From Liolophura sinensis (lineage: Eukaryota; Mollusca; Polyplacophora; Chitonida; Chitonidae), in assembly GCF_032854445.1 (NCBI RefSeq), contig NC_088298.1:22279295-22343294 (forward strand): 64,000 bases of DNA. Direction: 5' to 3'. A program made the translations under genes and the position numbers. Numbering within the stretch: position 1 is the stretch's first letter; every line of letters begins with the position of its first letter. Positions 1,913 through 62,043 of this stretch are shown here, one piece after another. The notes beneath the pieces were generated by a model. It saw only the letters and a list, made by a program, of their open reading frames with translations, was not told the origin of the DNA and did not search any database.

Positions 1913-1996
1913 GGGTTGTGGCTGACCCCTCAGACTTTTGCTGGTCTAGGCACGCCTTCATCCTGCAGCTCTGGTACCTGCAGACTTCCTAATCAG
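1913..1996 (+). CDS. BET-like gene, first exon in window (linker)
   Basis: There is a pyrimidine-rich acceptor before 1913 and a GTATGT donor after 1996. Only one frame is open through the 84 nt, and it joins in phase 0 to the next exon. It encodes 28 residues rich in Ser, Gly, Thr and Cys with no recognised domain, fitting the linker before a BET second bromodomain. It is the weakest of the nine exons because it has no conserved motif. Confidence 0.6.
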
Positions 1997-4900
1997 GTAT
2001 GTATGAAGCCCGTTTATAAGAATCCAAGTTTTACCATCCTGCAAAAACACATTCAGTTTTATTTTAACTTTTTGAATTTAAAATACTTTTAAATACATTT
2101 TAGCCCATTACTGCAGTGATGTCATTCAGGTGATAACGATTTTAGTATCAGCAGCAAAACATGGTGTTATTTATTTTCTTATTTGATTGATGTTTACGCC
2201 ATACTCAAGAATATTTCACTTATACAACGGCGGCCAGTGGTGGGAGGAAACTGGACACAGCCCGGGGGAAACCCACGACCATCCGCAGTTTGCTGGAAGA
2301 CCTTCCAGCTGGAGAGGAAGCCAGCATGAGCTGGGCTTGAACTCACAGCGGCTGCATTGATGCATAAAATCTTAAAACTACCTATGAAAAGTTCATGTAA
2401 TGTTAAAGGTAAGATGTTTGCGAATCCCAGGGGCATGTGTGGACAAGTGGTTAACATACCAGCGGGGCACAGTAACTCTCCCCAATGCGGTCGCTGTGAG
2501 TTCAAGTCCATTTTATGATGGCTTTCTCTCCAGCTATATGTGAGAAGGTCTGCTAGTTTGGTGTTATAACTCTGAAACCTCTCTGTGAGTTCAAGTCATA
2601 TGATGGCTTCCTCTCCGGTCTATGTGAGAAGGTCTGTCAGCATGGTGCAAAAACTCAGAAGCCTTTTACTGCTGTGAGTCCAGCACATGCTGGCTTCCTC
2701 TCCTTTCGTACATGGAAAGGTCTACCAGCATGGCGCAATAACTTAGGAACCTCTCAGTAATGCGGCTGCTGTGAGTTCAAGCCCAGCTCATTCTGGCTTC
2801 CTCTCCAGTCAATGTGGGAAGGCCTGCCAGCAAGCATTGTTTTGCCGACAGCTTTGCCCAGTTTCCTCTCACCATAATCCCGGCTATATACCTCAGTATT
2901 AGTGAATTATCCTTGAATACAGTGTAAACTACCAATCAAATAAATGGATTGTATGAATCCCTGCATGCAGGAAACTATCTTTGTTTATAATACAGGAATT
3001 CCAGAAGCTTTTTGCATGGGAAGAACAACTTCCACTGCAAATTATGCAACTTTTTTTTGTCAGTCTACTAAGAATAATGCTGTCAGAACAGATTTGAATA
3101 AACATCTAGCAAACATGCACAAGGTTTAAAGATGTACACTATAAATGAAAATTGTGGAGATTGATTCTATGTTACCCCAAAAGTTGCATTTATAAAGGCA
3201 ACTAAAATGTCTTAAAATATTGTTTTGTTTTTTTTTTGTGCTGAAACTAACCATTTTTTCTGGAGGATATCATCCTACTTGCCAAACAATTTTCAAAATA
3301 CCTGTCTGTGATTAAAGTAGAACGTTAATAATTAGGCAGAATTGACAGCTTGGTGATGGGTGAAATTTTTGTCATTGATCCTGTATGTTTTCATTTATAT
3401 ACATTTTGTAGTTTGTGGTTTTAACTATTCTTCTCATCGTGATTATTGTGATGGATTAAATAATTAGCTGATTAATATAAAGAATGTTCTTGTTGTTTAG
3501 ATGTCCAAAAAGAAGGAAAAAAAGAAGGAAGGTCTCAATTATTGCAAAGTCATTTTGAAAGAACTACTTGCGAAGAAGCATGCTGTGAGTAACTTATGGC
3601 TTTGCATCAAGGGGTTAATGGGGTACCATCGTACATGTGTCATGGAAAGACTTGAACAAATCCATACATGCATTGATAAAGGTGCTCACAGGGAGTTTAA
3701 AAACCACAACTCTGTTTTCGTGATGTTGCACAATCAAGATAGCACAGTTCAGTGTGAGCAAAACTGCAAACAAATTGCAAAAAGTGTACAGTTTAGTAGT
3801 CAGCATATACCCAGGTGATTTTTCAGACTAGCCCAAATAATTTCCTTTAACAAAATATGAAGTCTGTCTACACGTTATCATCCAAAATTGGTAATAAATT
3901 TCATCAAATTTATAACGCAACTTGCTTTATAACTTTTTCAGACTTTAGAATCTGATACTTTCTGAAAGGCAGTAATTTGAGCTATTCTGAGAAAATGGAG
4001 AAAATTTCTTTTTATTTGCGAATATGAATACTTTGACCAAGGTCTTCGGTATAGCTTCTTGTAGTGTACGTTGTATACCTTGTGTTTTTTATTTTGATGG
4101 TGCAGAGCTATTCTTGGCCCTTCCTCAAACCTGTGGATGCCAGTGTGTTAGGATTGAAAGACTACCATCAGAGAGTGAAGACCCCCATGGACCTGGGCAC
4201 TGTCAGCGTGAGTTTCACTTTGTTCTCCAGTATTGTCCCCACTTGCTTCAAATTCTGACCTGCAGGAATTTCTGTACAGCTGACATGGCCTTTGTATTGA
4301 CAGTGTGTCAAACAGTGGGCTGATTAGAACACGTCAAGACAAACAAATCCATTTCAAGTTCTCATTATGAATCAAATTAAATTTTGTATTTACCTCCGGC
4401 GTTAAGAATGCAGGCATATAAAGGTAGGTGGGAAAAAGTTAGATGTCACAAAATTGAGAAGGCTGCATTCATCGAACTTCAAAATTCGATGAATGCAATT
4501 ATTTTCAAATGTCTTGGCGTGAATGATGTTATCTGCTTTTGTCTCTGTACACTTCATGTATTCAGGGACCAGTAGATATTCTCTGGTGAATTGCATGAAA
4601 AACATGTGATGTTACATAGTGTAAATCTTCAAACTTTTCAACCAATAAAGCATTTTTTTCAGTGGAATTCACGCATTCAATTATTATGAAAATGATATCG
4701 AAATTGATATGTTTGTGTTGTTAAAGATGCAAGTTTCATAAAACTGGACAAAGTATTTCTCTACATCCCATAGTTCTCTCAGAATGTTTCAAAATTTTGG
4801 CAGCAGAGGTGGTTGAAAAGGTTGAGGAATTAGGTTATTGACAACATTCCATGTTGGAAATTTTGTCAGCTTGACCAAAAACGGTTCAGTTAAAGGGATA

Positions 4901-7900
4901 CAGAATCAACACTGATTGGCTGACAATGGATATAGCATTTCCTGGGTTAAACCCTACAGGCTTGGTCACGCTTGAATAAATCTGCCATACCTAAAGTTCA
5001 GCTGAGGCTCGGCAAAGCCTGAACTTGACTATTTCTAACACCAGCCAATCAGAATAGATTGTGTATCCCTTTAAGACAAAATAATTGTCTGTGTTGTGCT
5101 GTTCAGATTGCTGAATCCTGTAAATAAAATATAGTTTACTGCATTTCACCTGAAGTTAAGCATTTTTCAGGTGACACATTTTGAGAGGTCCTGATTGATT
5201 GATACATCATATGGAGCCACAAAAAGTTTTGTCTGAAGCCTGATTACTTTCTTATTGGATATGCTGGTATAAAAAATATCATTTTAAGGTCTATTGTAAT
5301 TCTTCAACTTTTTCGCATGTTTGCAAGGTGTTTATTCAAGTATATTATGAAGGCATTATTCTCGGCAGAAGACTGATAAAATTATACTTTCTGTGAAGCC
5401 CTGAAAGTAGCCAACTGAACTAATGTAGTTTTGTCCTATAACGTCCCATTTAAAGGGTGCATAAATTGCACTGAAAGTTGCTCTTTCATATGCAGCATAA
5501 AACATCAATCAGTCATATGCGAGAAGCTTGAGGAATTAGGGTATATATGAGAATGCAGTCATTTATACTGCAAATTTTAGGTCTTTTAACATATTGTATT
5601 TAAATAAGAGCTGTATTTCATGTTTCAGAGAAAATTACACCATGGAGAGTATAGGGATCATAGAGAGTTTGCGGAGGACGTGCGTTTGATCTTCACAAAC
5701 TGTTACCGGTATAATCCCTGGCAAAGTAATGTTGCCAACATGGCCAGGAAGTTGCACGTAAATACTTAAAATGTATAGGAATCTCTGCTCTGAGTTTTAC
5801 GTCGTACTTTACAATTTTTCAGTCATTTGATGACGAGGTGTTGACGATTAGGTGTGTGTACATTTACTTCATCTCCTGCTGGCAGGACGAGTCCATGCGG
5901 CCAAAGTGCTGCAGCCACTGAAGTATCATGCCGAAGATGCCAGATATGACACCATACATGACACCCCACCCAGTCACATTGCAGTTAGCATTAGGCCACT
6001 GAAGCGGTCTCAAGTTCCTTAAAATTGGGCCTGATACTGTGAATTGCAATGAAAAATTGGCCAACATGGACCAACATTGGTGGCATGGACCAACATTGGC
6101 GGCATGGACCAACATTAGCCAACATGGATCAGCATTGGTGGCATGGACCAACATTGGCGGCATGGACCAACATAGGCCAACATGGACCAGCATAGGCCTA
6201 CATGGACCAACATTGGCGGCATGGACCAACATTGGCGGCATGGACCAACATTGACCAACATGGACCAACATTGGCGGCATGGACCAACATTGGCGGCATG
6301 GACCAACATTGGCCAACATGGACCAACATTGGCAGCATGGACCAACATTGGCCAACATGGACCAACATTGGCAGCATGGACCAACATTGGCCAACATGGA
6401 CCAACATTAGCGGCATTGACTCGCCCTGCCACAAGATGGCACAATATATGCACACACACCTAATGGCACGTCATCATCGTATGACAGCAAAATTGTTAAG
6501 TACGATGTTAAACCCCAATCGTACAAACACACACACACACATATAAACTAAAAATGACCTTAAATTTCATCCATGACGAAAGTTGCTCATATTCCTGATT
6601 CTTAATAACATTCTACTGATGAGAAAGGTTTTGATGTTTGTTTGGAAGGTGGGATGATATCCTACTGAAAAAAATGCAAGTTTCAGAGAAAGAATCGACA
6701 AAGAAAAATTTAAATACTTACTTTGCCTTTGTGGAAATTTGAGGCGGTTGAGGGGATTTTTGTACATGAACGTGAACCCTGCAAGCGGTACATCTCTGAA
6801 GCCAGACAGGATATACATTTATGGCATATTTGTCTTCTAGGAAGTGTTTGAAAGGAAATACGCATCCGTAGCTGATGATCCACCAGCTCCCCCACAGAGA
6901 TCTCTGTCAACTCGGGCTCCCGCAGGTCCTCCTTTCTCCGACCCGGCTTCGGACAGTCTGATCCCGTTTTGCTCAGTCGAGGAGCAATGTGACAGGCAGT
7001 TGAGAGAATTACAGGTGAGGGCTAGTGGGTTTTGATTTGGGACCATAGAAACACCAGCAAGAGTGACCTCATTAATGAAGCAGTATTAATTAAAAGAAAA
7101 GATAAAACTAGACCCAATGTATATATGCAGAGATAAAGCATTCCACGGGAAACTTCAAAGGCAGAAGTTTTTATTAGCTTGCCGTATGATTAGCTCTCCT
7201 TATGAAGTATGGAGAGATATTGTGAGAGGGGGACCAGATGCTATTGGGGGCAGTAGTGGTGTCCAGTTTGGTTAAAGTTTTTGGCCAATCATAGGGCTGC
7301 AGTGACCACCCATAGTACTTAGGTAGATACACAAATATAAAAATATCAGTGGACAAGTTTTTCAGTAACTTGCCCAAGTGTCATTGGTTTACTCTGAATA
7401 CTCGTTCATTCACCAACAAAACTCAGCCATCGTACAGGTGAAAAACTCTTGAGTGTTGCCTTATATATTAATTAATCAATCAATCAATCAATTAGTTAGT
7501 CAGTCAATCAGTCAAATGCAATCTGACATATCTGCAGGCTGCTGAAGGATTAGGGATTCAAAATGTGAAAGCGATAAGAAAGGAATTACAGAAACTCAAG
7601 GAGCTGGAGTCAAAACTCAAACTCAACATCCAGTCCCGCCGAGAAAAGCTCAGGCTGCTTCGTGATGACAAGAACCTGAATAAGTCTGTTAATAAGGTAA
7701 GAAACTGGAAAGTTGGCCTAGTGGTTAGTCCGCTAGCGCAGCACAGTGATCCAGAAGCCTTTCACCAATGCGGTCGCCGTAAGTTGAAGTTCAGCTCATC
7801 CGGCTTCCTCTCTGAAGGTCTATCTGCAGCCTTTAGATGATCATTATGGGTTTCTCTCTTTCCTCCTACCAAGATTCTGGCTTCCGTCGAAATAAATAAA

Positions 7901-10900
7901 TCTAATTTGCCAGTATAATGAATAAATAAATAACCACAGCATACTGGTATGCTGCCTTGTTAATGCAAAATGGGGCATCATGATTTGTGTCTGTCTAGAT
8001 GGGTTTGTCATTTTGTTCACTTGTTTTGGGAGGAGATGTAATCTTTTGAGCAAGATATCTCCAAAAAACTAAGGCTTCTAATTTGATACTTTGCCACTAT
8101 TTTCTTAATGTGATTAATGTTAAAAAACGATTTTTTTCTCCATTTTTTATCACTTTAGTGGCCTAGTTTTGGCTATTTATCAACGGTTGCATGAGGCCAT
8201 TAGCTATTTATCAATGGTTACGTGTGGCCAATGGCTATTTATCACCAGTTACGTGAGGCCATTGGCTATTTATCACCATGTACATGTGGCCATTGGCTAT
8301 TTATCACCATGTACGTGTGGCCATTGGCTATTTATCACCGGTTATATGAGTCCATTGGCTATTTATCACCGTTTACTTGTGGTCATTGGCTATTTATCAC
8401 CGGTTACATGAGGCCATTGGCTATTTATCACCATGTACATGTGGCCATTGGCTATTTATCACGGGTTATATGAGTCCATTGGCTATTTATCACCATTTAC
8501 ATGTGGCCATTGGCTATTTATCACCAGTTACACGAGGCCATTGGCTATTTATCACTGGTTACATGAGGCCATTGGCTATTTATCACCATTTACATGTGGC
8601 CATTGGCTATTTATTACCGGTTACATGTGGCCATTGGCTATTTATCATCATTTACATGTGGCCATTGGCTATTAATCACCGGTTACATGTGGCTATTGGC
8701 TATTTATCACCGGTTACATGAGGCTATTGGCTATTTATCACCATTTACATGTGGCCATTGGTATTTATCACCGGTTACATGTGGCCATTGGCTGTTTATC
8801 ATCATTTACATGTGGCCATTGGCTATTTATCACTAGTTACATGTGGCTATTGGCTATTTTTCACCGGTTACGTGAGGCCATTGGCTATTTATCACCATTT
8901 ACATGTGGCCATTGGCTATTTATCACCAGTTACATGTGGCCATTGGCTATTTATCACCAGTTACATGTGGCTATTGGCTATTTATCACTAGTTACATGTG
9001 GCCATTGGCTATTTATCACCAGTTACATGTGGCTATTGGCTATTTATCACCAGTTACATGTGGCTATTGGCTATTTATATTTGAAAGATTAATGCATTTT
9101 ATCTGCTTGTTTGTGACGCAGTTAACACAGTGGATCACCAGGTCTGCCCGGGAGAGTTTTCCTTCGTGGGTGTCGGGAACAAATGAGGGTGGGAGGCTAC
9201 AGAACGCACAGGATCCAGACCCCTCCTATACCCAGTCGATGAACATCATGCCACACTTATCTGATCAGCTTGGAGAACAACTTATCACACCTGTACAAAT
9301 TGCTGGGAATTCAGGAGCCCAGACAGTCAAACAACAACAACTACCATTGGATGAACAGTTTTTAAATTTGCATTTATTACAGAACATTTTGGGGCCAGTG
9401 GGTTTGCCAAATCCAACACCATTGTTGCAAAGTGGTCCCCATCAGGCTGATGCAGTAGGATGCGCACAGGGGCCATGGCAACCATTGCCACAAGGCGTGG
9501 CATTGAGAGAAACACAGCAGCAGGTGCTACAATTGCCACAAGTTGGGCCACAAACTTCACAGCGGCAACCCTCATCACCATTAAGGGATTTATTAAATCA
9601 ACCTACATTATTGCAAAGACAACAAGTGGTACAACAACAACAAGAAGCTCTGATAACCTCATTCCATCCAATGCAGCCATCATCGACAACTGAACTGCAG
9701 CAGCCACAGACTACTCCCAGTTCAACTCCTGTAGAGCGCGGACAAAATCCTGAGATAAACATCAAAAAAGACTCAACAAAGCAACAACAACAACAACCAA
9801 ACAACGTTAAAGACATAACCCCTGTGGGAGTAGACATACCTGTAGATATTGGGGCACAGTTTCCTGTGAGCGTTTTCGCCAGCGATGGCAGCGGTAAGTT
9901 GGTCAAAGTTAATCAAGTCACAGAGATTTTTCAGTGTGTGTTTTGTGCCAAGATGTTTTCATCGCAGGAGTTTCTTGATAAGCATTTGGAAGGGAAGCAC
10001 GAAGACGATGTGATCAAATTAGAGAAGCGAGCATCAGTGGCCACACCCAAAGCTCATACCAGACCAGTGGGTGCATGCAAGAGAAGTAGAGGCCAAGATA
10101 AGAATAACTCTGGCCAGTCATCAGACAATGACGCAATGTCAGACAAAAGGATTTTATCAGATAAAGATGTTATAATTGTAAGCTTTGAGAACATGTCGTC
10201 GGTCAACAATCCTGCTCAGACAGATGTTATTGTGTTGGGTAAAGAGCCAGCGCACACACCTGCTTTCTCGACAGATGAAGATGTGCAACTCGCCCGTATA
10301 TCATCGCTGAGGCCAAAGCAAGTAAGATCATTTCTATCATAAACGACAAGTTTGGATACAAATATACAATAAATTTTTTTTCTTTTTTTTTGGGAACTGA
10401 ATATTCTGTTACACTAAATGTCAGAGAAAACGAAAGAACATTAAACACTGTCCAGGAAAATAGTTTGATTTTTTTCTTCAACATGGTAAAATGGTTTTGA
10501 AACTTTGAATTCTACAGTAGCCCTTTCTGACCATATAAGGATTTCATCATTCAAAACGATGTATAAGTACATTGGCTGAATAGGCGTTCAAACAAACTAA
10601 CTGGCCCTGCTGGCACAGTTGGTAGAGCGCCTGCTTTAGGAGCGGTAGATCCAGGATCAATCCTGGGTCGAGTCACACCTAAGACTTTAAAAGAGGAAGT
10701 TGCAGCTTCCTCGTTTGGCGTTCAGCATGAAGGGGATGGTACAACGACTGGTTGAAGCGTATCAGTATAATGGCTCGGGCAGGGCGGCTTACTTGCCTTC
10801 GGTGAGGCGTCTCAGTGAAGCAGCACTATATAAAAGAGGGGTGGAAATCCGTACTGCAACAAGGAGGCACATTACATACATTCTAATGATTCCTTCGTCG

Positions 10901-13900
10901 TCATCTGACTGAAAAATTGTTAAGCACAACATTAATCCCCAAGCATTCACTCACTCACTCACTCAAACAAACTACTTTAAGCAAAAAGTGTAGTTATGAC
11001 CTACAGCCCAGCTTACAAACTAATGTTTTAAAACCATTTTACTCAGGTGGAAAAATTCCAGAAAAAAAAAGGTTATCAAACTATTTTTGCCATATATACT
11101 GTAAATGTTTAACCTTTTCAATCATTGCAGAACATTTGATGGTTTAAAATTATTATGAAAATGATACTAATAATGATTCCTTTGTGTTATTAAAGATGAA
11201 AGCTTCATAAAACTGTGCAAAATTATTTTTCTACACCCCATAGTTCTCTAAGAATATTTCATAATATTGGTTGCAGAGGCAGTTGAAAAGGGTGAAGAGT
11301 TAGGGTAATCTTTGTGTTAGTGTTTTCTTTGCCCTTTTAAACCTTGCATATTTCAAAGCCAGCTATATACTATAGCTATATACTACAAATTGTCAGGTAC
11401 ATACTGGGCAGTCTATATAGATGTGCTATGTTAAAAGTGTGACATTCATCATTACAACCCTACCTCTCTAAAAAGGGGGCGATGGACATGCAATGTACAT
11501 CTGTCTAATCTCTCTGATTGCATATTTGTTTAACTCTCATTCCTCAACCATTTTGCATATGAAGGAGCAATTTAGTGCATATTTTAGTGCAATTTAAGCA
11601 TATTTTTAATTAGGATTCGAAGACAAAACTACATTGGTGGGATTCACACAAAATATAATTTTATCAGTCAACACAGAATAAAGCCTTCAGGATATGCTTG
11701 AATAAACATGTTTGCAAACATGCGGAAAGGTTGAAGAACTACTGTAAGTAGCCCTTTCATTTTAACAACCTTCGGATCGTTGTGAGCTTTCCCCGGGCTC
11801 TGCCCAGTTTCCTTCCACCATAATGCTGGCCGCTGTCATATAAGTGAAATATTCTTGAGTATGGCATAAAACCCCAATGAAATAAGTAAAATAAATTTCA
11901 TTTGAACAGCTGTACATGTCTTGGATTTTGGTCTTTGGTTTGCTTAGTCCCCAAGGAATAAGGTTGAATGTACTAATGAGGAGTCCACATCAGCAAGTGG
12001 GGAGGCAAACAACGGCAACAAGAGCAAGAATGAAGAGGACACAAGTTATGCAGAATGTGACATTTGTGGGAAGCATTTCCTTTCTCCCGATTTCCTGGTC
12101 AAACACATCAACAGGAGGCATGGAAAGGTTCAATCAGATTCACAGAGGGGGCGGTCAACCAAGTTGAATAGTGTAGACGTCAGCTAAGTTCTTTCACCTG
12201 TAGTTTTACCTGTGACACATATAAGAGTTCGTCAGTAACTTGCCAAGGATCAGTGGTTTACTACAAGCACTTCAGTTTCCTCCATGTATAAAGCTTGCTA
12301 CCATCTTGAAAGTGAAAAATTCAACAGTATGGCAATTAAAAGCAATCAGCGGGTAAATATTTGCATTAAAAATGTAGAAAACATAAGGATTACATAAAGT
12401 TAAGAGTGCGAAAGATAAATGTAATCTTCAATATTTTTTTCGTCTTTTCTTTAAAGAGAAATACACTTGAAAATGATTTTTGTATGGTGGATAGTTTGGA
12501 CCACCTGTCCTCTTGGTATGTATCATGTTTGTGTAATAATGTTATAAATGATTATGTAACATGTATTTAATAAATACATGTGTACTAGAATTGCGGTCTT
12601 CCCAGCTGACAAACGTGTTCTTATTCGATATTGATCATAGTTTATATTATTAGTAAATATATAATATTGTATGTATTATATTGATAAATATTATTGTAAT
12701 TCACATCAAATGCATTTGTTCAAATAAATTTATTAAACATGTATTACATGCTTATTTGGAACATCATTTTGCAAAGACATGCCAAAATACCAAAAGGTGG
12801 TCCCATATACCCACCATGCATAAAAATTTTCAAATGGCCTTCTCTGATGAAAGAGAAGTTGAAAAAAAATATTAGAGTGACATGGGCACCCGAAATCTAG
12901 ATTTAAAAAAAAAAATCTGAGTGTGATTTGTTAACAAAGGTTTAAAGTTCGTTCACAAACAAAATCACACATACCAAAAGGTGGTCCCATATACCCACTT
13001 TTTTCAAATCTTCTTTCCTACAGAAAGCAAAAATTAGAAAAAATCTCGAATCCCATATTTACAAGATAAGTTTTCACATTCTTTCATCTGATTTTGGCAT
13101 GAATTTTATGGTTACTTCTCCTTTAATGCAAAGAGTCATGTAATTTGTAACAAAAAGTCGATTCACTTTTTTTGTTAGGATTATACGGAAACTGCCTTAA
13201 TGCAGAACAGAATTGACACCCTCAGTTCAAAAGATTAAATTGAATGTAGATTTAGTACTGTAGCTATCCTACTGACATGACTGATCTTTGCTGATGAAAA
13301 TCAAAATCAAATCAAATCCATAATGGGGCAAAATATGGTGGCTTTGTAGAATCATTTTCTGGTGGTATTATATGTCCTTGTTAGTTTATGCTAATTAGTT
13401 TGCTGAATTTAATTACAAATCAATTAAATTACAGGAACTATGTGTAAATAACAGAAAAAGTTAATTTCTTCTTCATTTTTGACATAATAAGTTCAAGGAT
13501 GCTTTTCATTGTTTTTGTTGGCCGAGAGGGTTACCATGCCTGTGCAGCGTAGTGACCCAGGTGCCTCTCACCAATGTGGTCGCTGTGAGTTCAAGTCTAG
13601 CTCGTGCTGTCTTCCTCTCCGACCGTTAGTAGGAAGGTCTGCCAGCAACTTGCTGATGGTTGTGGGGTTTTTCCGGGCTCTGTCTGGTTTCCTCCCACCA
13701 TAAAGTTGGCCGCCAGCGTATGAGTCAAATATTCTTGAGTACGGCATAAAACACCATTCAAATAAATAATTGTTCTTGAAACCCTTGGTGGAAATAACGG
13801 TCTGACAGAGCGCACTTATGTAGTCTTGCATAAATGTGGACAACCCTGCCCAAGGACTACACATAAAAATGGCTATTTCTCCCACTTTCAGACCAGTGAT

Positions 13901-14209
13901 GATAACACACATGAAAACAAATCGAAGTGCTCGGACGAGCATCAGTGTAAAGGCTGTGACAAATGCTTCATGAGCAGACACTTCCCGGCCAATCATATCA
14001 AGCGGCGACACCCAGCCTCAGTGTCAAAGGTCAAGAAAATGTCAGGGAGGAAAGAGGTGGGAAATGAGGTGAATCTGGCCCTAAAATCCAGTGCCAAGTT
14101 GGAACTGTCGGATCTACCCAACATCAGTTTGGAATGCACACATTGTGACCTGACTTTCAAGAACAGAGATTTGTTGAACAAACATATAGCGAGCACACAT
14201 TCTGTGTGA
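1913..14209 (+). CDS. BET-like bromodomain protein with C-terminal C2H2 zinc fingers (5'-truncated by window edge)
   Basis: Predicted chromatin reader. Nine exons are seen: 1913-1996, 3501-3584, 4106-4207, 5629-5757, 6841-7014, 7538-7696, 9122-10321, 11948-12127 (or 12172) and 13892-14209. All junctions are AG/GT and phase 0, giving about 809 codons. Window-relative residues: bromodomain about 40-143, with the WPF shelf, the PMDLGT motif and the NCYRYNP motif holding the acetyl-lysine-binding Asn; coiled coil about 200-235; Gln-rich low-complexity stretch about 290-470; four C-x2-C-x12-H-x4-H fingers starting at about 516, 681, 723 and 786. The bromodomain matches the second one of BRD2/3/4, with the KEL.AKKHA lead-in helix and MARKLHEVFE exit. 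BET proteins normally end with an ET domain and none is visible here. Family knowledge: BET proteins bind acetylated histones. Inferred: a divergent BET paralogue that gained DNA- or protein-binding fingers. The N-terminus is outside the window. Confidence 0.85.
2190..2345 (-). repeat. SINE family S1, 3' part
   Basis: Reverse orientation of the window's commonest SINE. The 3' end reads GTATAAGTGAAATATTCTTG then AGTATGGCGTAAA on the minus strand. It lies within an intron of the BET-like gene. Confidence 0.75.
2430..2948 (+). repeat. Multimerised SINE S1 heads
   Basis: About four tandem, diverged copies of the S1 B-box segment (GCTGTGAGTTCAAGTCC...ATGGCTTCCTCTCC), about 85 bp apart at roughly 2497, 2583, 2670 and 2768. 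They are followed by one normal S1 3' end and an ATAAATGG junction. Confidence 0.65.
3040..3130 (+). repeat. MITE M4 fragment
   Basis: Matches the AATAATGCCTTCAGAACAAG...AATAAACACCTTGCAAACAT segment of the copy at 28485-28695. Confidence 0.5.
3501..3584 (+). CDS. BET-like gene, exon with Lys-rich patch and bromodomain helix Z
   Basis: The acceptor is TTTAG before 3501 and the donor is GTGAGT after 3584. The 28 codons start with a Lys/Glu patch ([11 protein letters not shown]) followed by [17 protein letters not shown], the equivalent of the helix that opens the second bromodomain in BRD2/3/4. The ATG at 3501 is the first codon of an internal exon, not necessarily the start of translation. 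The basic patch could act as a nuclear localisation signal. Confidence 0.85.
4106..4207 (+). CDS. BET-like gene, bromodomain exon (WPF shelf, ZA loop)
   Basis: The 34 codons run from the AGC after GGTGCAG to the GTGAGT donor. They carry the WPF shelf (WPFLKPVD), the LGLKDYH helix and the PMDLGT motif that characterise BET bromodomains. Splice phases on both sides are 0. Confidence 0.9.
4620..4850 (+). repeat. MITE family M3 copy
   Basis: Begins GTAAATCTTCAAACTTTTCA and ends GGTTGAAAAGGTTGAGGAAT. The ends are inverted repeats of CTTCAACCTTTTCAACC. The core (ATTATGAAAATGA, AGTTCTCTCAGAATGTTTCA) recurs at 11095, 15595, 29635 (-), 41435 and 43185. Confidence 0.75.
4890..5074 (+). repeat. MITE family M5, copy 1
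   Basis: 185 bp. Starts TTAAAGGGATACAGAATC and ends with the inverse, ATTGTGTATCCCTTTAA. The sub-terminal GATTGGCTG / CAGCCAATC is also inverted. A second copy lies at 14458-14642. Confidence 0.8.
5090..5295 (+). repeat. Dispersed repeat sharing the TTTCACCTGAAAATTAGC motif
   Basis: Sequence around GCATTTCACCTGAAGTTAAG and TTTTTCAGGTGACACATTTT recurs at 27935-28090, about 29540-29620 and 43735-43940 (-). The motif is itself a small inverted repeat (TTCACCTGAA / TTCAGGTGA). Confidence 0.6.
5296..5555 (-). repeat. MITE family M4 copy
   Basis: Ends TTCTTCAACTTTTTCGCATG and GAAGCTTGAGGAATTAGGGT. The interior matches 11535-11745 and 28485-28695 in reverse. Confidence 0.65.
5629..5757 (+). CDS. 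BET-like gene, bromodomain exon (acetyl-lysine-binding Asn)
   Basis: The 43 codons run between TTTCAG and GTAAAT. They encode the B helix ([16 protein letters not shown]) and NCYRYNP, whose YN asparagine is the acetyl-lysine-contacting residue (N433 in BRD4 BD2). The following BC loop reads WQSNV where BRD4 BD2 has PDHEV, so the BD2-typical His is absent while the gatekeeper-position Val is kept. Confidence 0.9.
5865..6015 (-). repeat. SINE S2 body, inverted, left of minisatellite
   Basis: On the minus strand it reads ATGTGACTGGGTGGGGTGTC to GGCCGCATGGACTCGTCCTG. It faces the + oriented S2 end at 6408-6545 across the array. Confidence 0.65.
6050..6410 (+). repeat. Minisatellite of ATGGACCAACATTGG units
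   Basis: About 18-20-bp units ATGGACCAACATTGGCGGC or ...GGCCAAC repeated roughly 19 times in the intron between BET-like exons 5629-5757 and 6841-7014. Open frames on both strands through this block are by-products of stop-free units. Confidence 0.9.
6408..6545 (+). repeat. SINE S2 3' end with CA tail
   Basis: CATTGACTCGCCCTGCCACA, then AAAATTGTTAAGTACGATGT and TAAACCCCAATCGTA, ending in (CA)n at about 6530. Confidence 0.6.
6841..7014 (+). CDS. BET-like gene, bromodomain exit helix and Pro/Ser linker
   Basis: The acceptor is TTCTAG and the donor is GTGAGG. The 58 codons begin [10 protein letters not shown], the end of the bromodomain C helix (compare DVFEMRFA in BRD3/4), then a Pro/Ser-rich linker and an acidic, Arg/Gln-rich end ([13 protein letters not shown]) that leads into the coiled coil of the next exon. 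Confidence 0.85.
7270..7515 (+). repeat. SINE-like 3' end with (AATC)n tail
   Basis: GTAACTTGCCCAAGTGTCAT...GTGAAAAACTCTTGAGTG, then AATCAATCAATCAATC. A related sequence without the tail lies at 12225-12345. Confidence 0.45.
7538..7696 (+). CDS. BET-like gene, coiled-coil exon
   Basis: The 53 codons run between CTGCAG and GTAAGA. The product is Lys/Leu/Glu-rich with heptad-like spacing of hydrophobic residues ([17 protein letters not shown]), so a basic coiled coil is predicted. It occupies the place where BET proteins carry a basic motif after the second bromodomain, but I see no clear sequence identity to that motif. Confidence 0.8.
7708..7905 (+). repeat. SINE S1, 3'-deleted copy
   Basis: The head GTTGGCCTAGTGGTTAGTCC and B-box region are present; the centre is deleted and a short AAATAAATAAA tail follows. 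It begins 12 bases after the exon ending at 7696. Confidence 0.65.
8160..9078 (+). repeat. 31-bp minisatellite upstream of exon 9122-10321
   Basis: About thirty copies of a 31-bp unit, GGCCATTGGCTATTTATCAC then CAGTTACATGT. All three + frames are largely open because the unit lacks stops. The array ends about 45 bases before the splice acceptor of the Gln-rich exon. Confidence 0.95.
9122..10321 (+). CDS. BET-like gene, 400-codon Gln-rich exon with zinc finger 1
   Basis: The acceptor CAG ends at 9121, and a second in-phase AG lies at 9129-9130. The donor after 10321 is GTAAGA. The exon encodes a long low-complexity region with several Gln runs (around 9331, 9630 and 9780), then a C-x2-C-x12-H-x4-H finger (first Cys codon at 9935), then a Lys/Arg/Ser-rich segment and an acidic end. 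The open frame also runs back through the 31-bp minisatellite to 8903, but that part is judged intronic because a proper acceptor separates it. Confidence 0.85.
10600..10972 (+). repeat. tRNA-derived SINE (S3) with (CACT)n tail
   Basis: The head has an A box, TGGCACAGTTGGTAGAGCGC, and a B-box-like GGATCAATCCTGGGTCGA. A long body follows, then AAAATTGTTAAGCACAACAT and an (ACTC)n tail. The tail block matches S2 at 6490, so two SINEs share one 3' end. Confidence 0.75.
11095..11310 (+). repeat. MITE M3 copy
   Basis: GTAAATGTTTAACCTTTTCA at the left and CAGTTGAAAAGGGTGAAGAG at the right, with the M3 core between. Confidence 0.65.
11535..11750 (+). repeat. MITE M4 copy
   Basis: CATTCCTCAACCATTTTGCA to GAAAGGTTGAAGAACTACTG. 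The core includes TCAGTCAACACAGAATAAAG. Confidence 0.65.
11775..11900 (+). repeat. SINE S1 3' end
   Basis: CGGATCGTTGTGAGCTTTCC...ATAAGTGAAATATTCTTGAG...AAATAAG. It lies 48 bases before the zinc-finger-2 exon. Confidence 0.7.
11948..12187 (+). CDS. BET-like gene, exon with zinc finger 2 and an optional stop
   Basis: The acceptor is GCTTAG. The acidic, Asn/Ser-rich lead is followed by a C2H2 finger (first Cys codon at 12056; helix end INRRH). Two phase-0 donors are possible, AAG|GTTCAA after 12127 and AGT|GTAGAC after 12172. Both are weak matches to the consensus. If neither is used, the frame ends at TAA 12185-12187 and gives a shorter isoform with two fingers. An AATAAA lies at about 12569. 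Confidence 0.75.
   Translation, partial: SPRNKVECTNEESTSASGEANNGNKSKNEEDTSYAECDICGKHFLSPDFLVKHINRRHGKVQSDSQRGRSTKLNSVDVS
12360..13126 (+). repeat. MITE family M2, copy A
   Basis: About 765 bp. The left end is TGTAGAAAACATAAGGATTA and the right end GGCATGAATTTTATGGTTAC then TTCTCCTTTAA. It carries an internal near-duplication around ACCAAAAGGTGGTCCCATAT (12790 and 12975). The AATAAA at 12569 lies inside it. Confidence 0.7.
13515..13770 (+). repeat. SINE S1, near full length
   Basis: The tRNA-like head GTTGGCCGAGAGGGTTACCA, the B box GTGAGTTCAAGTCTAGC, a body, and the 3' end AAATATTCTTGAGTACGGCA with an AAATAAATAA tail. It lies just upstream of the terminal BET-like exon. Confidence 0.85.
13892..14209 (+). 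CDS. BET-like gene, terminal exon with zinc fingers 3 and 4
   Basis: The acceptor is CCACTTTCAG. The 105 codons and TGA stop follow in phase 0. There are two C-x2-C-x12-H-x4-H fingers, with first Cys codons at 13946 and 14135. Finger 3 ends IKRRH, very like finger 2, which supports one gene with duplicated fingers. A Lys-rich linker joins them. The protein ends two residues after the last His. Confidence 0.8.
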   Translation, partial: TSDDNTHENKSKCSDEHQCKGCDKCFMSRHFPANHIKRRHPASVSKVKKMSGRKEVGNEVNLALKSSAKLELSDLPNISLECTHCDLTFKNRDLLNKHIASTHSV

Positions 14210-25064: not shown

Positions 25065-25074
25065 TTTCAAGCAG

Positions 25075-26062
25075 CCAGTTTTACATGGGTGAGAATTCTC
25101 AACAGTAGCACACAAGTACATGTACTTGGGTGAGAATTCTCAACAGTAGCACACAAGTACATATACATGGTTGAGAATTCCAAACAGTAGCACACCAGTA
25201 CATGTACATGGGTGAGAATTCCCAACAGTACCACACCAGTAGATGTACATGGGTGAGAATTCCCAACAGTAGCATGCAAGCACATGGGCGAGAATTCCCA
25301 ACAGTAGCACACCAGTACATGTACATGGTTGAGAATTCCCAACAGTAGCATGCAAGCACATGGGTGAGAATTCCCAACAGTACCACACCAGTAGATGTAC
25401 ATGGGTGAGAATTCCCAACAGTACCACACCAGTAGATGTACATGGGTGAGAATTCCCAACAGTACCACACCAGTAGATGTACATGGGTGAGAATTCCAAC
25501 AGTAGCATGCAAGCACATGGGTGAGAATTCCCAACAGTAGCACACCAGTAGATGTACATGGGTGAGAATTCCCAACAGTAGCACACAAGTAGATGTACAT
25601 GGGTGAGAATTTCCAACAGTAGCATGCAAGCACATGGGTGAGAATTCCCAACAGTAGCACACCAGTAGATGTACATGGGTGAGAATTCCCAACAGTAGCA
25701 GACCAGTAGATGTACATGGGTGAGAATTCCCAACAGTAGCATGCAAGCACATGGGTGAAAATTCCCAACAGTAGCACACCAGTAGATGTACATGGGTGAG
25801 AATTCCCAACAGTAGCACACCAGTAGATGTACATGGGTGAGAATTCCCAACAGTAGCATGCAAGCACATGGGTGAGAATTCCCAACAGTAGCACACCAGT
25901 AGATGTACATGGGTGAGAATTCCCAACAGTAGCACACCAGTAGATGTACATGGGTGAGAATTCCCAACAGTACCACACCAGTAGATGTACATGGGTGAGA
26001 ATTCCCAACAGTACCACACCAGCAGATGTACATGGGTGAGAATTCCCAACAGTAGCATACAA
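25075..26062 (-). repeat. 41/35-bp minisatellite with 117-bp higher-order period
   Basis: Long units of 41 bp (CATGGGTGAGAATTCCCAAC + AGTAGCACACCAGTAGATGT + A) and short units of 35 bp ending GCATGCAAGCA, about 25 in all. In the centre they follow long-long-short, with GCATGC at 25505, 25622, 25739 and 25856, exactly 117 apart. All three minus frames stay open for about 300-340 codons because units lack stops. Confidence 0.95.
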
Positions 26063-27110
26063 GTAAATGACATGCAAGTGTGAGAAATCTTCAGTGATGT
26101 GCAGGAATTCTGATCAATCATCTACATACCCTATTTCTTCTAATTTTTGGGACACCTGGTCTGCTCATTTTAGCCAATACATCTGTAATTCTAGCAGCAA
26201 TATTGAGTTCCTTTTTTTCTCACATGGTTAGACCATCTAATGAACAACATACTCATATCTTTACTTTTCCAAAAGCCTGGTAAAGAAATGTAATACACCA
26301 CTTTCAACACTACTAATACCTGTCCCAAAAATGAGAAGAATTACACCATTACAAATTGGCAGATCTCTTCATTTAATCAACCCAGAATTATTACCAGTAT
26401 TATATCCACCGTCAAGTAACAAAAATATTCCTTTGTACCATACGTATTACAATTATCCTGGACTTCTGATTACCCTTACAGATCTCCTCTAATTAATAAA
26501 GCTGTGTCTCGCTTAAAAACTGATACATGTTTATACTATAAATTTTAACGTTTTAGTACGTAACCATGTTAATAATGCATCTACATTCACTTCCATTTTC
26601 AGTTTGAAAGATGACAGTTTAATTATATGAACTGTTTGCTCGGACTCTCATCCTAGCGTTCTCACAAGCCATTCTCCACAAATGCTGACCGTAAGTCTGT
26701 CTCAAGCCTCTTGTAACCAATGTATACACAAAATACATGTGCAGTAAGAAGAAGAAAAAGCTTATTTCTGGACAAGACCACCTTTGTGGCAGGCTGAGTG
26801 AATGCTACAATCACACCCTCACATAGCACACTCAGTCAATCATGGCTGGTGAACATTTATAGCAAAATATATATATCTTCAGCTTGAGACGGCAGGGCCT
26901 ACACTTGTCCATCGTGAACCTTGGGAGTAGCGTGTTGCCATTAGGTCAAATGTTACATGTATGTCTCCATTATTATGGATACAGGTGACACACTATCACT
27001 GGGAAACTGTCAAAACGTTTTAATCTTGAGTACAAGATGGCAATTTATTCCATCCCTATACTACACAAAACTAAACGCCAATGGAAGTATCCAAACGGAG
27101 GATCTTGGTC
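26063..27110. other. Intergenic, nothing recognised
   Basis: A weak S2-like fragment at 26775-26850 (-). No supported exon. Confidence 0.35.
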
Positions 27111-33131: not shown

Positions 33132-36100
33132 AATTAACCTTGGCAGGAAAATACAGAAAGAAATGTCATCAAAATTCCAATAAACACAGCCCTTTTTTTG
33201 GACCCGTCAACCACAAGAGACATGAATTTCATTTATGGCCTAGAACTCTCTCTTCATCCAGTTGGACAGATTCTTGAAATATTTATTTCAAAATAATCGC
33301 TGCAGACATACCCGGACCGCACACTTTTCTCTGAGCGTGGCGTTTCGCGCCCTTTTTCCATGTCGTCATGCAACGCCTGGTGCTGATGGTGGAGCGATTG
33401 TGATGTGGGCACACTGCCCATACTCATTAGCGTCACGCCGGTCTGACCCATGCTTCCCGCACTAGATACCAAGTGTGTCCCATGTGGGCGTTGGGCCTGA
33501 TTTGACAGAAGGTCTTGATTGGACAACGTCAATCCACCAGGAGAGGAACTTGGAACTGGAAAACAAAATAAAATCTTAACATCAAGACAGATAGCATTGA
33601 GCAAACTTCACAGACAGATTCAGAATTTCTAGTGTTGTGACAAAATTAATATGCATATATGCTTGTTCTGAGATGGTGTGTTATATGTGTGATACGGAGT
33701 TTTAATGACTTCATAATACCGAAAGAAAAATAAATAACCTACATGTAAGATCATACTGAAACGGACTTTGATGTCACAACAAACATTTTATAAACTTGTG
33801 CAACTGTTTTCATTGGTTTCATGCTCTGGTACCACAAAATGCAGTCCACAGTTGATAAGAGTCCTGAAGTTCAAAACTAACACAAAACTTTACATCTTTA
33901 CAAAAAGGAAACTTCAGGAGATCAGATTTTTTTCATTGACTGGGTAAAACTGTCAAAAAACAAGCAAAATGGCACATAGGTGACTAGCACTGTTATTCCT
34001 CAGAGCTCCGTATCAAATTTCTAACCGCAGCAGGCCCTACTTCTTTCTCAAGCAGATCATGATCCATGTGACAAAAAAAAAAATCTTCTATGAATTTTGT
34101 GGAATGGAATAAAATACATAACCATGAAGGCACACACAAAACTGGACCATGTTCCTCAATGGGTTGACAGTAAGACACAGCAAGTGAGAGATTTACAAAG
34201 GGAGATAACTCAGTACAGTTCAATAGCGGTGTTGTGTTCTAGAAGTCTTACCTGTTCTCGCCAGTTGCTGACTCAACGCTTCTTGTAACTTCTGAAGAGT
34301 TTGCAAGGCTGATTTGAGAAAAGAAAATAACAGATGTTACACATACATCCTTACTATTAGAGAACTGGTGTCAAATTCTTTCATTCTACACAGCAATGGT
34401 TGTCATACTTAGTAAATTTCAGCACATATACATACTGTTTTTGAATATACTAAGCACTAAGTTCAAATACCGTTTATCGATTGACTTATTGATAAACTTT
34501 ATTTACAGAGGGTTCATAACCTTAGTCACCTGATCTTCGCTGAGGCCATCTCATTGACACATACACCCACTCACTCACAGACATTTCAAACTTATCTATA
34601 ACAAACCAATACGTTAAGTTATACAGAAATTCTAAGGCAATACTGCAGTTTAAAGCCACCCTAACTACTCCCCCTCCCCTATGACAAAAAAAGACATCAA
34701 CACTATCAAAGCTGTTCATCAAAGGGCAGCAACATCCCCTTCTTCCGTCTTCACAAAATAACAGTCTTGTAAGTCCTCATCGTACATCATACATATTGCC
34801 CGAATTTGAAATCATACTCATTTCCAATATTCTTGTATTTTCCCATGTTAATTTGTCAGAAAAGGATGTCTCAACAACACTGAGACACCCCATGGGTAAA
34901 CCTATGCTGTACATGTGCCTATACAGATGTAATATACATGTAGCTACACTTAGGATCTTTCCACTGTCATTATTTGTTTATTTATTCATACGATTGATGT
35001 TTTACGCCGTACTCAAGAATATTTCACTTACACGACGGCGGCCAGCATTATGGCGGGGCAAACCCACGACCATCCGCAGGTTGCTGCAAGGCCTTCACAC
35101 GTACGTCGAATGTCATTAGGTTCACATGTAATTGAGGTCTTTACGATAAAGCGAAAACGCTGGTGTTGCCAGCTTATCACATAATTATAACAGTGAATAA
35201 CACCACCCGACTGGCCCTTCGATTCCACCATTCTCTGACCTGTGTGTTCCACCCTAATCCTGAGCTGTTGAAAAATATCCTGGAGTGTGTTGACTGATTG
35301 ATTGACCTTGAGCACCACACTCAAAAATTTTCACTTATGGCAGTGGTCAGGTATAAGGGTGGGGGCTACTGGGTAGGATGACAGAGTAAACCACAGTCTT
35401 CACCAGGCACCTGACAATCTTGTCAATTTAAAGCCACGGCCTTAACTGTGAATGAGTACATGTACTATGATAATCAATCCCATCCAGGGCTTGTTTTATA
35501 CAATGTCCCAAAATATTTTATGTTATTCAATAAAGTTGCAGACCAAATCTGAAATGATCCAATACCTTTTTCAACGAACCTGACAATTTATCGAAACTCA
35601 CTGTCGCAGAGGTATTCCCTACATTCTGATTTGAAGGTTTTGGAATTCATGATTACTTCACGTTATTGTATTAAAAATAACGTGTATTGTGTTAAAAAAA
35701 TATATATATGTATACAAGTATACAAATATCCATACAAAAAATGAAGATTGGCCTGCTATTTTTTTTTCTTTTAATTTATTTTTAGCAAGTCATTTCAAAA
35801 CTGGCCTGCTATATGTTATTTTCCCCCTGGTTTTAGCCATTAGCACACTGTTAAATTGCTAATTATAAGAAGTGACCCACCTTTTTGAGTAAATTCATGA
35901 TCCTGATTGTTAGGTCGGGCTGAGGGGCTGAGTAGTGTATTTATGGAGGGGTGGCCATGTGAGGAGTTGACCGGCGGGGAGGTGTGGGTAAGACAGACTC
36001 CACTCCCGGAATAGGCTTGGGCCCACGTAGGCGTCGTCACCGTTATCGGGGTGCTGGAGGAGGGGAGAATAGGTGTGCCGCTGAGGCGAGAATTCTGACG

Positions 36101-39100
36101 GCTGTACGGTGGTGTGTTAGTCGGGGATATATCCATGTCATCTGTTTGGTGCGAACCTGGAAATACACATAAAGGGGAGAGAACTCATTACATGTAGTGC
36201 AGCAATAGTGTAAGAAAAGAAAATGCATTTGTTTTAGTTAAATATCAGACAAGGCTTCACCAGATATTAAAACCACCAACCTCTGCATGTATCAATGAAA
36301 TGCATGTACACATAACATGTGGTTAGTATTTAACTCTTCCACATCTTAACAGACATGTCTGGATAAATAGGCTATAAATCAACATTTATAGCCTACAGTA
36401 CATCACCTACACTGTATACAAAAAATTGCCCCGGTCTACGAACTGAAATACAGAAGGCAAAATTTTGCCTGGCCAGGGATAGCCCCAATTCACCATCAGA
36501 GTGCAGTTATCTGCCCTTGTAAATCGTGTCTAGAATGGGTATAGAGTGGATACATGTAATTTTGACCAGTGCCACGAGTGCGGATAAGGGAAGGTCAGCT
36601 GGCAGTTCATTGGTTCAGTGTGTTCATGAGCAGCTATGTAATCTGATATGTCACTAAGCTAAAAATAGAATAAAGCACATGGCAAGTCTCTACTGGGTGT
36701 CCAGGCAAGGCAGTGACCATAACAACATCCCACAACTACTGATAACGGCCATCCCCTGGGATGGGAGTGTCACATGAATCATGTAAGGTTTATTGCTTAA
36801 TTTTCATTGTTTCTTTGGTTAGCAGAGAGTATTCATCATGGAAGTACATGTAGGTTAGTAACAATGTATATCTTGGTCAAGGGGGTATGCTAAAGGAGAA
36901 GAAAATTTAAATATCAATCAAATAACAATAAAGAGTATGCATTTCCTCGCAGGTGCATGCCACAAAAAACATTCTAATTTGTTCCTCAAGATAATAAATT
37001 ATAAATAACTCCATTTTGCCTAAGAACTAGTCCTGAAGTCTTCTGTGTTAGGAGGAGAATTGCTGTCGGAAACCGCCAAAGTGCAGTTCATACATTTCCG
37101 GTAGAACCCTTCTTCCCAGAAGGAAGCGAACAGTACAGTTCGTTTTCCCCTTGATGATCGTGAAACCGGAATGTTGGATGTAGGTTCCGAATTTACACAA
37201 ACAAGCCGGTACTTTTAAGACTCTCATTGGCTGAGAGGCAACACACCCCCAGCATAAATTACAGGGTGTTAAAGATGGAGGACGCGATGGACTCATGGCG
37301 ATTTATGCCAGCTTTGCCGTTTTCAGGCTTTACGTGTATGGCGAGGAAAACTCGCAAAATTATGCAGCAGGCACCGTCAGATAGAAAAAAATGTGCTCTT
37401 TTCAGCCTATAGTGTCATGTTTTTAAGTTTTCTTCTCCTTTAATGAGCTGCATAGGACCTACCGAATTCTGAAACTGTACACTGGATACTATCACGTGTC
37501 TGTTGGAACATACAGGTTTTTAGGAACTGGCCTATATACTATGAAGCAATGTACTAAAAGCAATTTAATTTTAGCTCAGGAAACATAAAAAAGTGAAAAA
37601 TAAAATATATACATGCACCGTGGCTGATATGTGTGTGCAAAATTGGAAAATGTTGAAATGACACTGCATTATGGCACTCGAAGATTATGATTATGATTAT
37701 TATTATTATTTAATATACAATTGTAATATTACAAAAATTACTTTTTGATGTCACCATGTATATCTAATTCTTCACTTATTCATCTCTTGCTTCAACAAAC
37801 ATCTATGCTCATGAAACAATACATGATCCTGACGTAATGATAACGCATAGCACTCGTAGTGTTTTCAGATAATTAGTTTCTACTGGAATGTGGGTCAGAA
37901 TTCTGACATGTCTTAGTTAAAATTAAGCCCCTTTCAGTGCTTTGCCTCATATATAGTAGCACATTAACATACAGCCTATACCAAGACATAAATTCTTACC
38001 AATATATGATGTGTATTTTCTGCTTCCCAAGGAAACAATATAATTAGCAATAAACCTGACAAAATTCATGTGAGGCTGCCAGCCCACGCATCCCGGCTGT
38101 TATCAGTGACATCAGGAGTTGTCAACTGTCATCGGCTTGTCTGACTGGCCATGTGCTTTTTTCATTTTTAGCGTAGTGGCGTATCAGATTACCCAGCTGC
38201 GCATGTACTGAACCAATGAACTGCTGGCTGACCTTCTTCCCCTGTGCGCAAGTCCTGTGAGCTGTTTCTCATAGGTGTCCTAACGCCACCATGACGTCGC
38301 ATTCTGATGACATACGTTGACCGGTGTAAGGTTATTACCCCTTTGAGAAACAGCTCCCTGCTCTGGCCCACATGGTCTTGCATGTAACCAATTGATGCTG
38401 TGTTTGTGATGAAGTTTAATTGAAAATCTGAACTATTCACATGTATAACATTGTGCCAAACGTGTACCAATTTCACATCATAACATGAAAAAGCTATTGA
38501 AAACGTGCATCATTTTATACAACTTCACTGCTGTAACTTCACTATATTCTGCCATAGAGAAAGATCCAAGCAGAGCTTGCACTGAAAATAAAATGTGTTT
38601 ATAAAGGGATACTGCAATAACACTCAATGATCTAATAGAAGGCCTTAATTCAGATAAAATTAGTGCAGCAAGTTTAAGACATAACACATTCACATCTTCC
38701 TGAAGAATGTGTACATGTAGAAAACCAACAAAGTTTTAATGTGAATAAGGCATAAAAACACTGCAAACTTCATATGATATTGATTTACATAAATGCTCCA
38801 TATGAAGATGTGATTCATCTCTAATAAATTTATTTTATTGTAAGGTTGTTGTTTATATCTAAAGACATCAGCTAATTCCAAACAAGAATCAGGGTGTCCA
38901 AAATACTGCCCTTCTATCCCTAAACATGTATAACACTTCCCGAAATAAAGGGAAAAAAAAAAAAGAAAAAGAAAAAGAAATTTGGCTTGATTGTTTCATG
39001 GGCCATTCGTGGTGTACATGTGCATAAGAAGATAATACAGTGTACCTGTAAATCCATTATTTCCGTAAGAAAATACTGAAGACCATATTTACAGTTCTTT

Positions 39101-60547: not shown

Positions 60548-61297
60548 ATAATGCTGAAAGTAATGTTAGACCCCAAGCAACGCCTAGGAAACAAATCCAG
60601 ACAGTCCTACTAAAGCCTACATGTTCCCAAACACCGAATAAATAAATATACATATATGCTGTAATGAAACGCTAGGCCATTCTAGGGCCTTCGGAGCCAA
60701 AGTGGCTATTGTGCCGACACAGCGCAATAACTCAGCAGCCTCTCACCATTGCGGACGCTGTGAGTTCAAGTCCAGCTCATGCATCCTGGCTTCCTGTCCA
60801 GGTGCATGTGATAAGGTCTGTCAACAGCCTGCCAATAGTTGTAGATTTCCCCACAGGTTCTGCCCAATTTCTTTCCACTGTAAACCTGGCCACCGTAGTG
60901 TAAGTGAAATATTCTTGAGTATGATGTAAAACACCAATTAAATAAATAATTAAATACATGTACCAATCCTGTTACTTTAATAATAGTTCAATCCTGTTAC
61001 TTTTAACAGAAAAGACAATGTTAGAGAACATTGACATTTACACATATATGTACATGTAGGTCAGGGGGCACATGTAAATGTAGGTCGGTGCACATGTAAA
61101 TGTACATGTAGGTCAGGTGGCACATGTAAATGTACATGTAGGTCGGGGCACATTTAAATGTAGGTCAGGGGACACATGTACATTTAGGCCAGGGAGCACA
61201 TGTACAAGTAGACCAGGGAGCACAGGTAAATGTACATGTAGGTCAGGGGCATAGATGTACATGTAGGTCAGGGGGTAGAGATGGATCTTTTTGAGGA
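60548..61297 (+). repeat. 750-bp tandem duplication, copy 1
   Basis: Contains an S3-like tail (AATGTTAGACCCCAAGCAAC), a full S1 SINE (60690-60955) and a minisatellite of ACATGTAAATGTACATGTAGGTCAG units (61045-61275). Copy 2 repeats this exactly 750 bases later with only a few differences. Confidence 0.9.
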
Positions 61298-62043
61298 ATA
61301 ATGCTGAAAGTAATGTTAGACCCCAAGCAACGCCTAGGAAACAAATCCAGACAGTCCTACTAAAGCCTACATGTTCCCAAACACCGAATAAATAAATATA
61401 CATATATGCTGTAATGAAACGCTAGGCCATTCTAGGGCCTTCGGAGCCAAAGTGGCTATTGTGCCGACACAGCGCAATAACTCAGCAGCCTCTCACCATT
61501 GCGGACGCTGTGAATTCAAGTCCAGCTCATGCATCCTGGCTTCCTGTCCAGGTGCATGTGATAAGGTCTGTCAACAGCCTGCCAATAGTTGTAGATTTCC
61601 CCACAGGTTCTGCCCAATTTCTTTCCACTGTAAACCTGGCCACCGTAGTGTAAGTGAAATATTCTTGAGTATGATGTAAAACACCAATTAAATAAATAAT
61701 TAAATACATGTACCAATCCTGTTACTTTAATAATAGTTCAATCCTGTTACTTTTAACAGAAAAGACAATGTTAGAGAACATTGACATTTACACATATATG
61801 TACATGTAGGTCAGGGGGCACATGTAAATGTAGGTCGGTGCACATGTAAATGTACATGTAGGTCAGGTGGCACATGTAAATGTACATGTAGGTCAGGGCA
61901 CATTTAAATGTAGGTCAGGGGACACATGTACATTTAGGCCAGGGAGCACATGTACAAGTAGACCAGGGAGCACAGGTAAATGTACATGTAGGTCAGGGGG
62001 CATATGTACATGTAGGTCAGGGGGTAGAGATGGATCTTTTTGG
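61298..62043 (+). repeat. 750-bp tandem duplication, copy 2
   Basis: Same contents as copy 1: S1 at 61440-61705 and the minisatellite at 61795-62025. Differences include GAGTTC/GAATTC in the B box (60764 versus 61514) and small changes in the minisatellite. Confidence 0.9.

Follow-up and report, generated by a model that had tools for sequence, protein, structure and literature searches.

The locus described here raises the question whether a bromodomain of the BET family can be joined in one gene to C2H2 zinc fingers. It lies in a stretch of 64,000 nucleotides from the chiton Liolophura sinensis (contig NC_088298.1, called C4 here, positions 22,279,295 to 22,343,294 of the forward strand), hereafter the window. 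An earlier reading of the letters, referred to below as the original prediction, had assembled nine exons, E1 to E9, on the plus strand between window positions 1913 and 14209. The exon arrangement is real and unusual, and it was partly mis-modelled in that prediction.

The bromodomain and the conventional BET gene

E2 to E5 encode a BET-type second bromodomain (BD2), and the earlier claim of a BD2-like bromodomain is borne out. The protein joined from E1 to E9 matches the Pfam Bromodomain model at 3.3e-18, and its bromodomain scores 156.8 bits against BD2 of human BRD2, 133.7 against BD2 of BRD4 and 72.9 against the first bromodomain (BD1) of BRD4. It is identical at 78 of 119 positions (66%) to BD2 of the chiton's conventional BET gene on contig C13, at 72 of 120 (60%) to BRD2 BD2 and at 64 of 120 to BRD4 BD2, the corresponding values for two BD1s being 40 of 103 (BRD4) and 39 of 83 (C13).

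The exon structure, which was compared with that of the C13 gene, agrees as well. E2 (3501..3584), whose first codon is ATG, begins the domain and shares 18 of 25 residues and its 3' border with a C13 exon. E3 (4106..4207) carries the WPF shelf and the ZA loop (24 of 32 residues identical, borders shared), and E4 (5629..5757), which contains NCYRYNP, shares 26 of 44 residues and its borders and was found by the genome search with PF00439. The borders inside BD2, after KKHA, GTVS/GTVK and KLH/NLQ, occupy identical codon positions in both genes and are all of phase 0. E5 (6841..7014) encodes the end of BD2 followed by a motif matching BET ESEEERERRLRELQEQ; its region matches C13:16969252-16969464 with 42% identity over query residues 100-165 (E 6.6e-4), so that the RELQEQ motif is recognised up to residue 165 with no match beyond. 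The next border, again of phase 0, lies after RELQ in the window and after RELQEQ on C13, within two codons.

Eleven of the 12 pocket positions checked (BRD4 numbering) are the same as in BRD4, and the pocket Asn, Tyr and WPF shelf are present. The sole change, His437 to Ser, occurs in both chiton BD2s. Over 117 codons the nonsynonymous and synonymous divergences from C13 (dN and dS) are 0.24 and 1.30, giving a pairwise ratio of about 0.19 that also reflects constraint acting on the C13 copy. Because the pocket is intact and constraint is evident, the window protein is likely to read acetyl-lysine. In a tree the two chiton BD2s group together (ultrafast bootstrap 79), with branch lengths of 0.54 for the window and 0.08 for C13. 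Together with the shared Ser, this suggests, with C13 as the only protostome gene compared, that the duplication of BD2 came later than the divergence from the human line.

The conventional gene, whose existence as a separate locus the original prediction had proposed to check, lies at 16.960-16.973 Mb of C13 and has BD1, BD2 and ET. At the window locus neither of the other two domains was seen. Of the 31 genome matches to PF00439 (632 contigs, 609,464,459 bases), only that in E4 lies on C4, and the proposed extension upstream revealed no BD1-like exon, either among frames of at least 35 codons over 10 kb or in a scan for phase-0/0 exons. PF17035, the ET model, has one genome match (three candidates scored), located on C13; with no match on C4 or, at E values up to 1, in the joined protein, the predicted lack of ET held, and the idea of an ET domain hidden in E1 to E9 or in missed exons was rejected. 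The profile search of the genome takes exons singly and did not pick up the short E3, so short or diverged exons can escape it. In the genome searches E6 had no C13 match and E7 to E9 no BET match; as far as sequence comparison detects it, BET homology is confined to E2 to E5.

Four more loci outside C4 and the C13 gene were found with the BD2 query and set aside, since read by eye they look non-BET. A region at C6:47457400-47458400 contains bromodomain-like frames with NCYRYNGPDH and RVKRPMWL, presumably recalling human BRD10/KIAA2026.

Flanking exons, splice borders and zinc fingers

All nine stretches can be read with AG borders, and GT borders where internal; their lengths are divisible by three and they are in phase 0. 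This part of the nine-exon claim was confirmed; its start at 1913 and its junction of E8 to E9 were not. E1 (1913..1996; 28 codons, phase 0/0) has the best acceptor of the set (11.7) and the third best donor (5.6) and is an internal exon, either coding or part of the 5' untranslated region should translation begin in E2. It lacks a Met, and further exon-like stretches lie upstream of it, so the gene probably begins before 1913. The acceptor of E2 is weak (-2.8), and the donors of E2, E3, E4 and E5 score 2.5, 2.3, -0.3 and 8.6. E6 (7538..7696; phase 0/0, donor 6.1) is rich in Leu and Lys and helix-like by eye; no clear homologue was found in the genome or Pfam searches. Short exons were selected for being open, so their open frames carry little weight.

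E7 (9122..10321) is different in this respect, with 400 codons in which finger 1 begins at 9935 (zf-C2H2_jaz, 5.9e-5) and the predicted Gln-rich region is indeed present, with 18% Gln across the first 250 residues. Under a model of independent bases, 1.2e-8 such stop-free runs would be expected in six frames of 64 kb. That model breaks in repeats, as in a minisatellite at about 25070-26121, which has three open frames of 316-348 codons; E7 begins after the minisatellite preceding it.

E8 (11948..12187; acceptor 1.4) contains finger 2 from 12056, reads to a TAA at 12185-12187 and is probably a terminal exon. An AATAAA at 12569..12574 could serve a transcript ending there, such hexamers being frequent in the AT-rich DNA of this region. 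E9 (13892..14209) encodes fingers 3 and 4 (from 13946 and 14135; zf-C2H2, 1.6e-6) and ends in a TGA stop. Its acceptor (6.1) ranks in the top 0.5% of 3,608 AGs, and it is in phase with both E7 and E8. The donor at 12128 that would join E8 to E9 scores -5.1, a value equalled or beaten by 50.2% of the 3,808 GTs of the window. Since the E8 donor is poor, E7 and E9 are in phase and the E9 acceptor is strong, the likelier products are one with fingers 1 and 2 (E7-E8 stop) and one with fingers 1, 3 and 4 (E7-E9). A four-finger form is possible through another in-phase donor at 12179, whose score (-0.6) is close to that of the accepted E4 donor. The four predicted motifs are present downstream; of the splice forms considered, the one that would unite all four has the least support.

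The joined protein matches zf-C2H2 at 3.1e-9 (37.2 bits; curated cut-off 25.2). Of the nine CX2CX11-13HX3-5[HC] patterns counted over all six frames of 94 kb, four are these fingers. Any two of them have 7-11 of 27 residues in common, and at E 0.001 they have no other matching place in the genome. A PDB search with the E8-E9 fingers gave weak matches (best E 0.0046). AlphaFold, run on single sequences, gave a mean predicted local distance difference test score of 52.8 for E9 and 36.8 for E7, with only the stretch of finger 4 at about 80. DNA-reading C2H2 arrays usually consist of tandem fingers with short TGEKP-like linkers. Such linkers are absent here, the finger segments of the four-finger model being separated by 138, 15 and 36 residues, and the best Pfam model for finger 1, zf-C2H2_jaz (23.6 bits; cut-off 22.6), is described as binding double-stranded RNA. 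Because of this spacing the earlier proposal that the fingers tether the protein to specific DNA appears doubtful, and we would rank it below contact with RNA or protein.

Exon candidates upstream were sought on the gene strand, as phase-0/0 exons, in 30 kb before the window and 16 kb of it, giving 158 candidates, 73 of them starting before window position 2500, of which 45 were examined and read by eye. Exon D (C4:22277333-22277446; borders 7.7 and 3.5) encodes CEVCGLPVAVNFMSIHQAAC with a CX2CX11HX3C pattern, which we take to be that of RAD18-type UBZ4 fingers; it had no Pfam match at E values up to 5 and weak PDB matches to BCL11A (E 0.037-0.054). Two mini-exons, near copies of each other, lie between D and E1 (C4:22278389-22278427 and 22279095-22279139). 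Further upstream are exon A (C4:22265124-22268504), with 1,127 codons from an ATG, a donor of 7.2 and acidic repeats such as DDESDNQREDVLNPRTCI, exon B (C4:22270267-22270881) and exon C (C4:22274338-22274424; borders 1.2 and 1.4). Pfam searches with exons A to D and the first mini-exon gave nothing below E 0.35, and B, C and D match no second place in the genome at E 0.001. Candidates with border-score sums of at least 4, 6, 8 and 10 number 35, 12, 11 and 6 on the gene strand, counts that include overlapping alternatives of one exon, as against 6, 4, 3 and 0 on the opposite strand of the same 28.5 kb; in 49.7 kb downstream they number 2, 1, 0 and 0 on the plus and 10, 5, 3 and 2 on the minus strand. 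By this strand control, D and E1 are fairly well supported as parts of the gene. A and B possibly belong to the same gene, of which A may form the N-terminus.

In the upstream stretch (L001), tandem near-copies of about 700 bases, seen by eye at about 8600-9999, double a mini-exon (RNLNNRYRVVSQE / KNLNNHHGATVVSQE). A MADF match there (L001:1912-2067; 5.2e-4, 20.7 bits, cut-off 22) falls in a short, interrupted frame lying between candidate exons and was discarded as a probable transposon remnant.

Origin of the locus

From the BET homology, the shared borders and phases, the retained pocket residues and the lack of a BD1 or ET match at the locus, we lean towards capture of a BD2 exon block by another gene, which fused it to the fingers. 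The E2-E5 block would have arisen by duplication from a conventional BET gene once the human lineage had diverged, perhaps within molluscs, and would now lie inside another gene with its phase-0 introns retained. The host would provide the upstream exons, among them the one bearing the finger-like CX2CX11HX3C motif and perhaps one for a long disordered N-terminus, as well as the downstream Gln-rich and C2H2 exons. We infer that bromodomain and fingers share one transcript; this would yield a nuclear reader that binds acetylated lysine through its intact BD2 pocket, while isolated fingers on alternative C-termini (two from E7-E8, three from E7-E9) would hold nucleic acid or partner proteins, without ET-based recruitment. 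In its fullest form the proposal is tentative and has a less than even chance of being right: a capture in the mollusc lineage by a multi-finger gene, yielding one protein of as many as about 2,200 residues in which an intact BD2 is preceded by a C2HC finger and followed by C2H2 fingers, ET-free reading of acetylation, and finger sets switched by alternative terminal exons.

Several points weigh against this reading. The border scores use typical animal frequencies rather than weights trained on the chiton, the tree comprises six short sequences with the chiton as the only protostome, and the E6-E7 junction, which links bromodomain to fingers, depends on phase and on border scores of 6.1 and 2.6. 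The upstream scan, being limited to phase-0/0, is blind to disagreement in phase, and at the lower thresholds the opposite strand also yields candidates (3 against 11 at 8, 4 against 12 at 6, 6 against 35 at 4). The link of exons A and B to the gene is weaker; B has borders of -0.5 and 0.1 and can also read to a stop of its own. As for the C2HC exon, its acceptor is the final copy in a minisatellite made up of that same ttttcag motif.

One alternative is two adjacent genes: a short BET relic with BD2 only, running from E1 or E2 to E6, and next to it an independent C2H2 gene (E7-E9). The frame of E6 stays open past its donor as far as a stop that ends at 7840, followed by an AATAAA at 7891, a minisatellite seen by eye separates E6 from E7, and a protein with both halves was not found in the sources searched. 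Nevertheless, the E6 donor is in the top 0.3% of GTs and in phase with an E7 acceptor in the top 3.6% of AGs, and E7 looks internal because it is open for 39 codons ahead of its first Met, so that two genes seem rather unlikely. The original prediction of a BET paralogue that exchanged ET for fingers was right about the BET-type BD2, the lack of ET and the C2H2 motifs downstream. As a whole-gene duplicate, such a paralogue would agree with BET homology running past BD2 into the RELQ motif, and fly tBRD-1 illustrates that BET relatives can be without ET (PMC4345279). However, it would have had to lose BD1 as well, C4 bears no second PF00439 match, exons B-D and E7-E9 have no BET-like match and exon A no Pfam match. 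As neither flank matches BET and BD1 is also missing, capture appears to fit better, and we regard a true paralogue as distinctly unlikely. Least probable of all is a decaying or unexpressed copy. The longer BD2 branch, the weak E8 donor and the many repeats close by would agree with decay, but the 1,200 bases of E7 are open, the pocket residues are retained and the dN/dS ratio, even with its share of C13 constraint, speaks against it.

Other features of the window were noted. It is free of N, with a run of 200 N about 29.5 kb upstream. Minisatellites seen by eye at 6060-6420 and 8165-9085 are situated between exons of this gene and carry long open frames that arose by chance, and that at 25070-26121 was recognised from its repetitive open frames. 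A copy of 183-735 also stands, inverted and 80% alike, ahead of the BD1 exons of the C13 gene. A promoter shared by both genes was rejected, as the segment is a dispersed repeat with at least 41 matches among those listed (81-88% alike, on 12 contigs), 40 of 1,857 first-look candidates having been scored. Two 95-codon open frames with identical translations (60642-60926 and 61392-61676), 750 bases apart, are probably a recent direct duplication. On the minus strand, Ser/Pro-rich or low-complexity frames without a Pfam match (33257-33607, 35843-36184 and 44584-45045) may be exons of downstream genes.

Comparison with known bromodomain proteins

Few acetyl-lysine readers have been studied as much as the BET proteins, whose action is generally attributed to bromodomains paired with an effector-recruiting ET domain. 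If the captured block has been correctly interpreted, a natural protein with BD2 and with other modules in the places of BD1 and ET would uncouple reading from recruitment through ET and could reveal what BD2 does when positioned by other means. It would also clearly exemplify exon capture by way of symmetric phase-0 BD2 exons.

Combinations of bromodomains with zinc-binding modules are known from TRIM24/28/33/66 and ZMYND8/11 (PMC8303718), and likewise from BRPF and BAZ proteins. Across these groups the modules are generally B-box, MYND, PHD or an N-terminal C2H2 beside non-BET bromodomains. A term search of the bromodomain review PMC8303718 showed C2H2 to be absent from it. A literature search, judged by titles and the beginnings of abstracts and largely outside subscription journals, yielded no description of a BET bromodomain protein with C2H2 fingers.

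With the BET family (BRD2, BRD3, BRD4, BRDT, fly FSH and yeast Bdf1/2; PMC5133849) the window has in common the BD2 sequence and acetyl-lysine pocket, and with the chiton's own BET gene also the BD2 intron positions and the RELQ motif. It differs from them in that no BD1 and no ET were found and C2H2 fingers occur instead. Two BET-related proteins of the Drosophila testis likewise deviate from the pattern of two bromodomains and an ET domain, tBRD-1 being without ET and tBRD-2 having a single bromodomain with ET kept, and zinc fingers are not mentioned for either in the part of PMC4345279 consulted. Finally, mammalian Brd3-S and Brdt-S are ET-less BET splice forms arising from an alternative terminal exon; in the consulted part of PMC5133849 they have a truncated BD2 and no fingers are described for them; the lack of ET is a feature that they share with the predicted product of the window locus.

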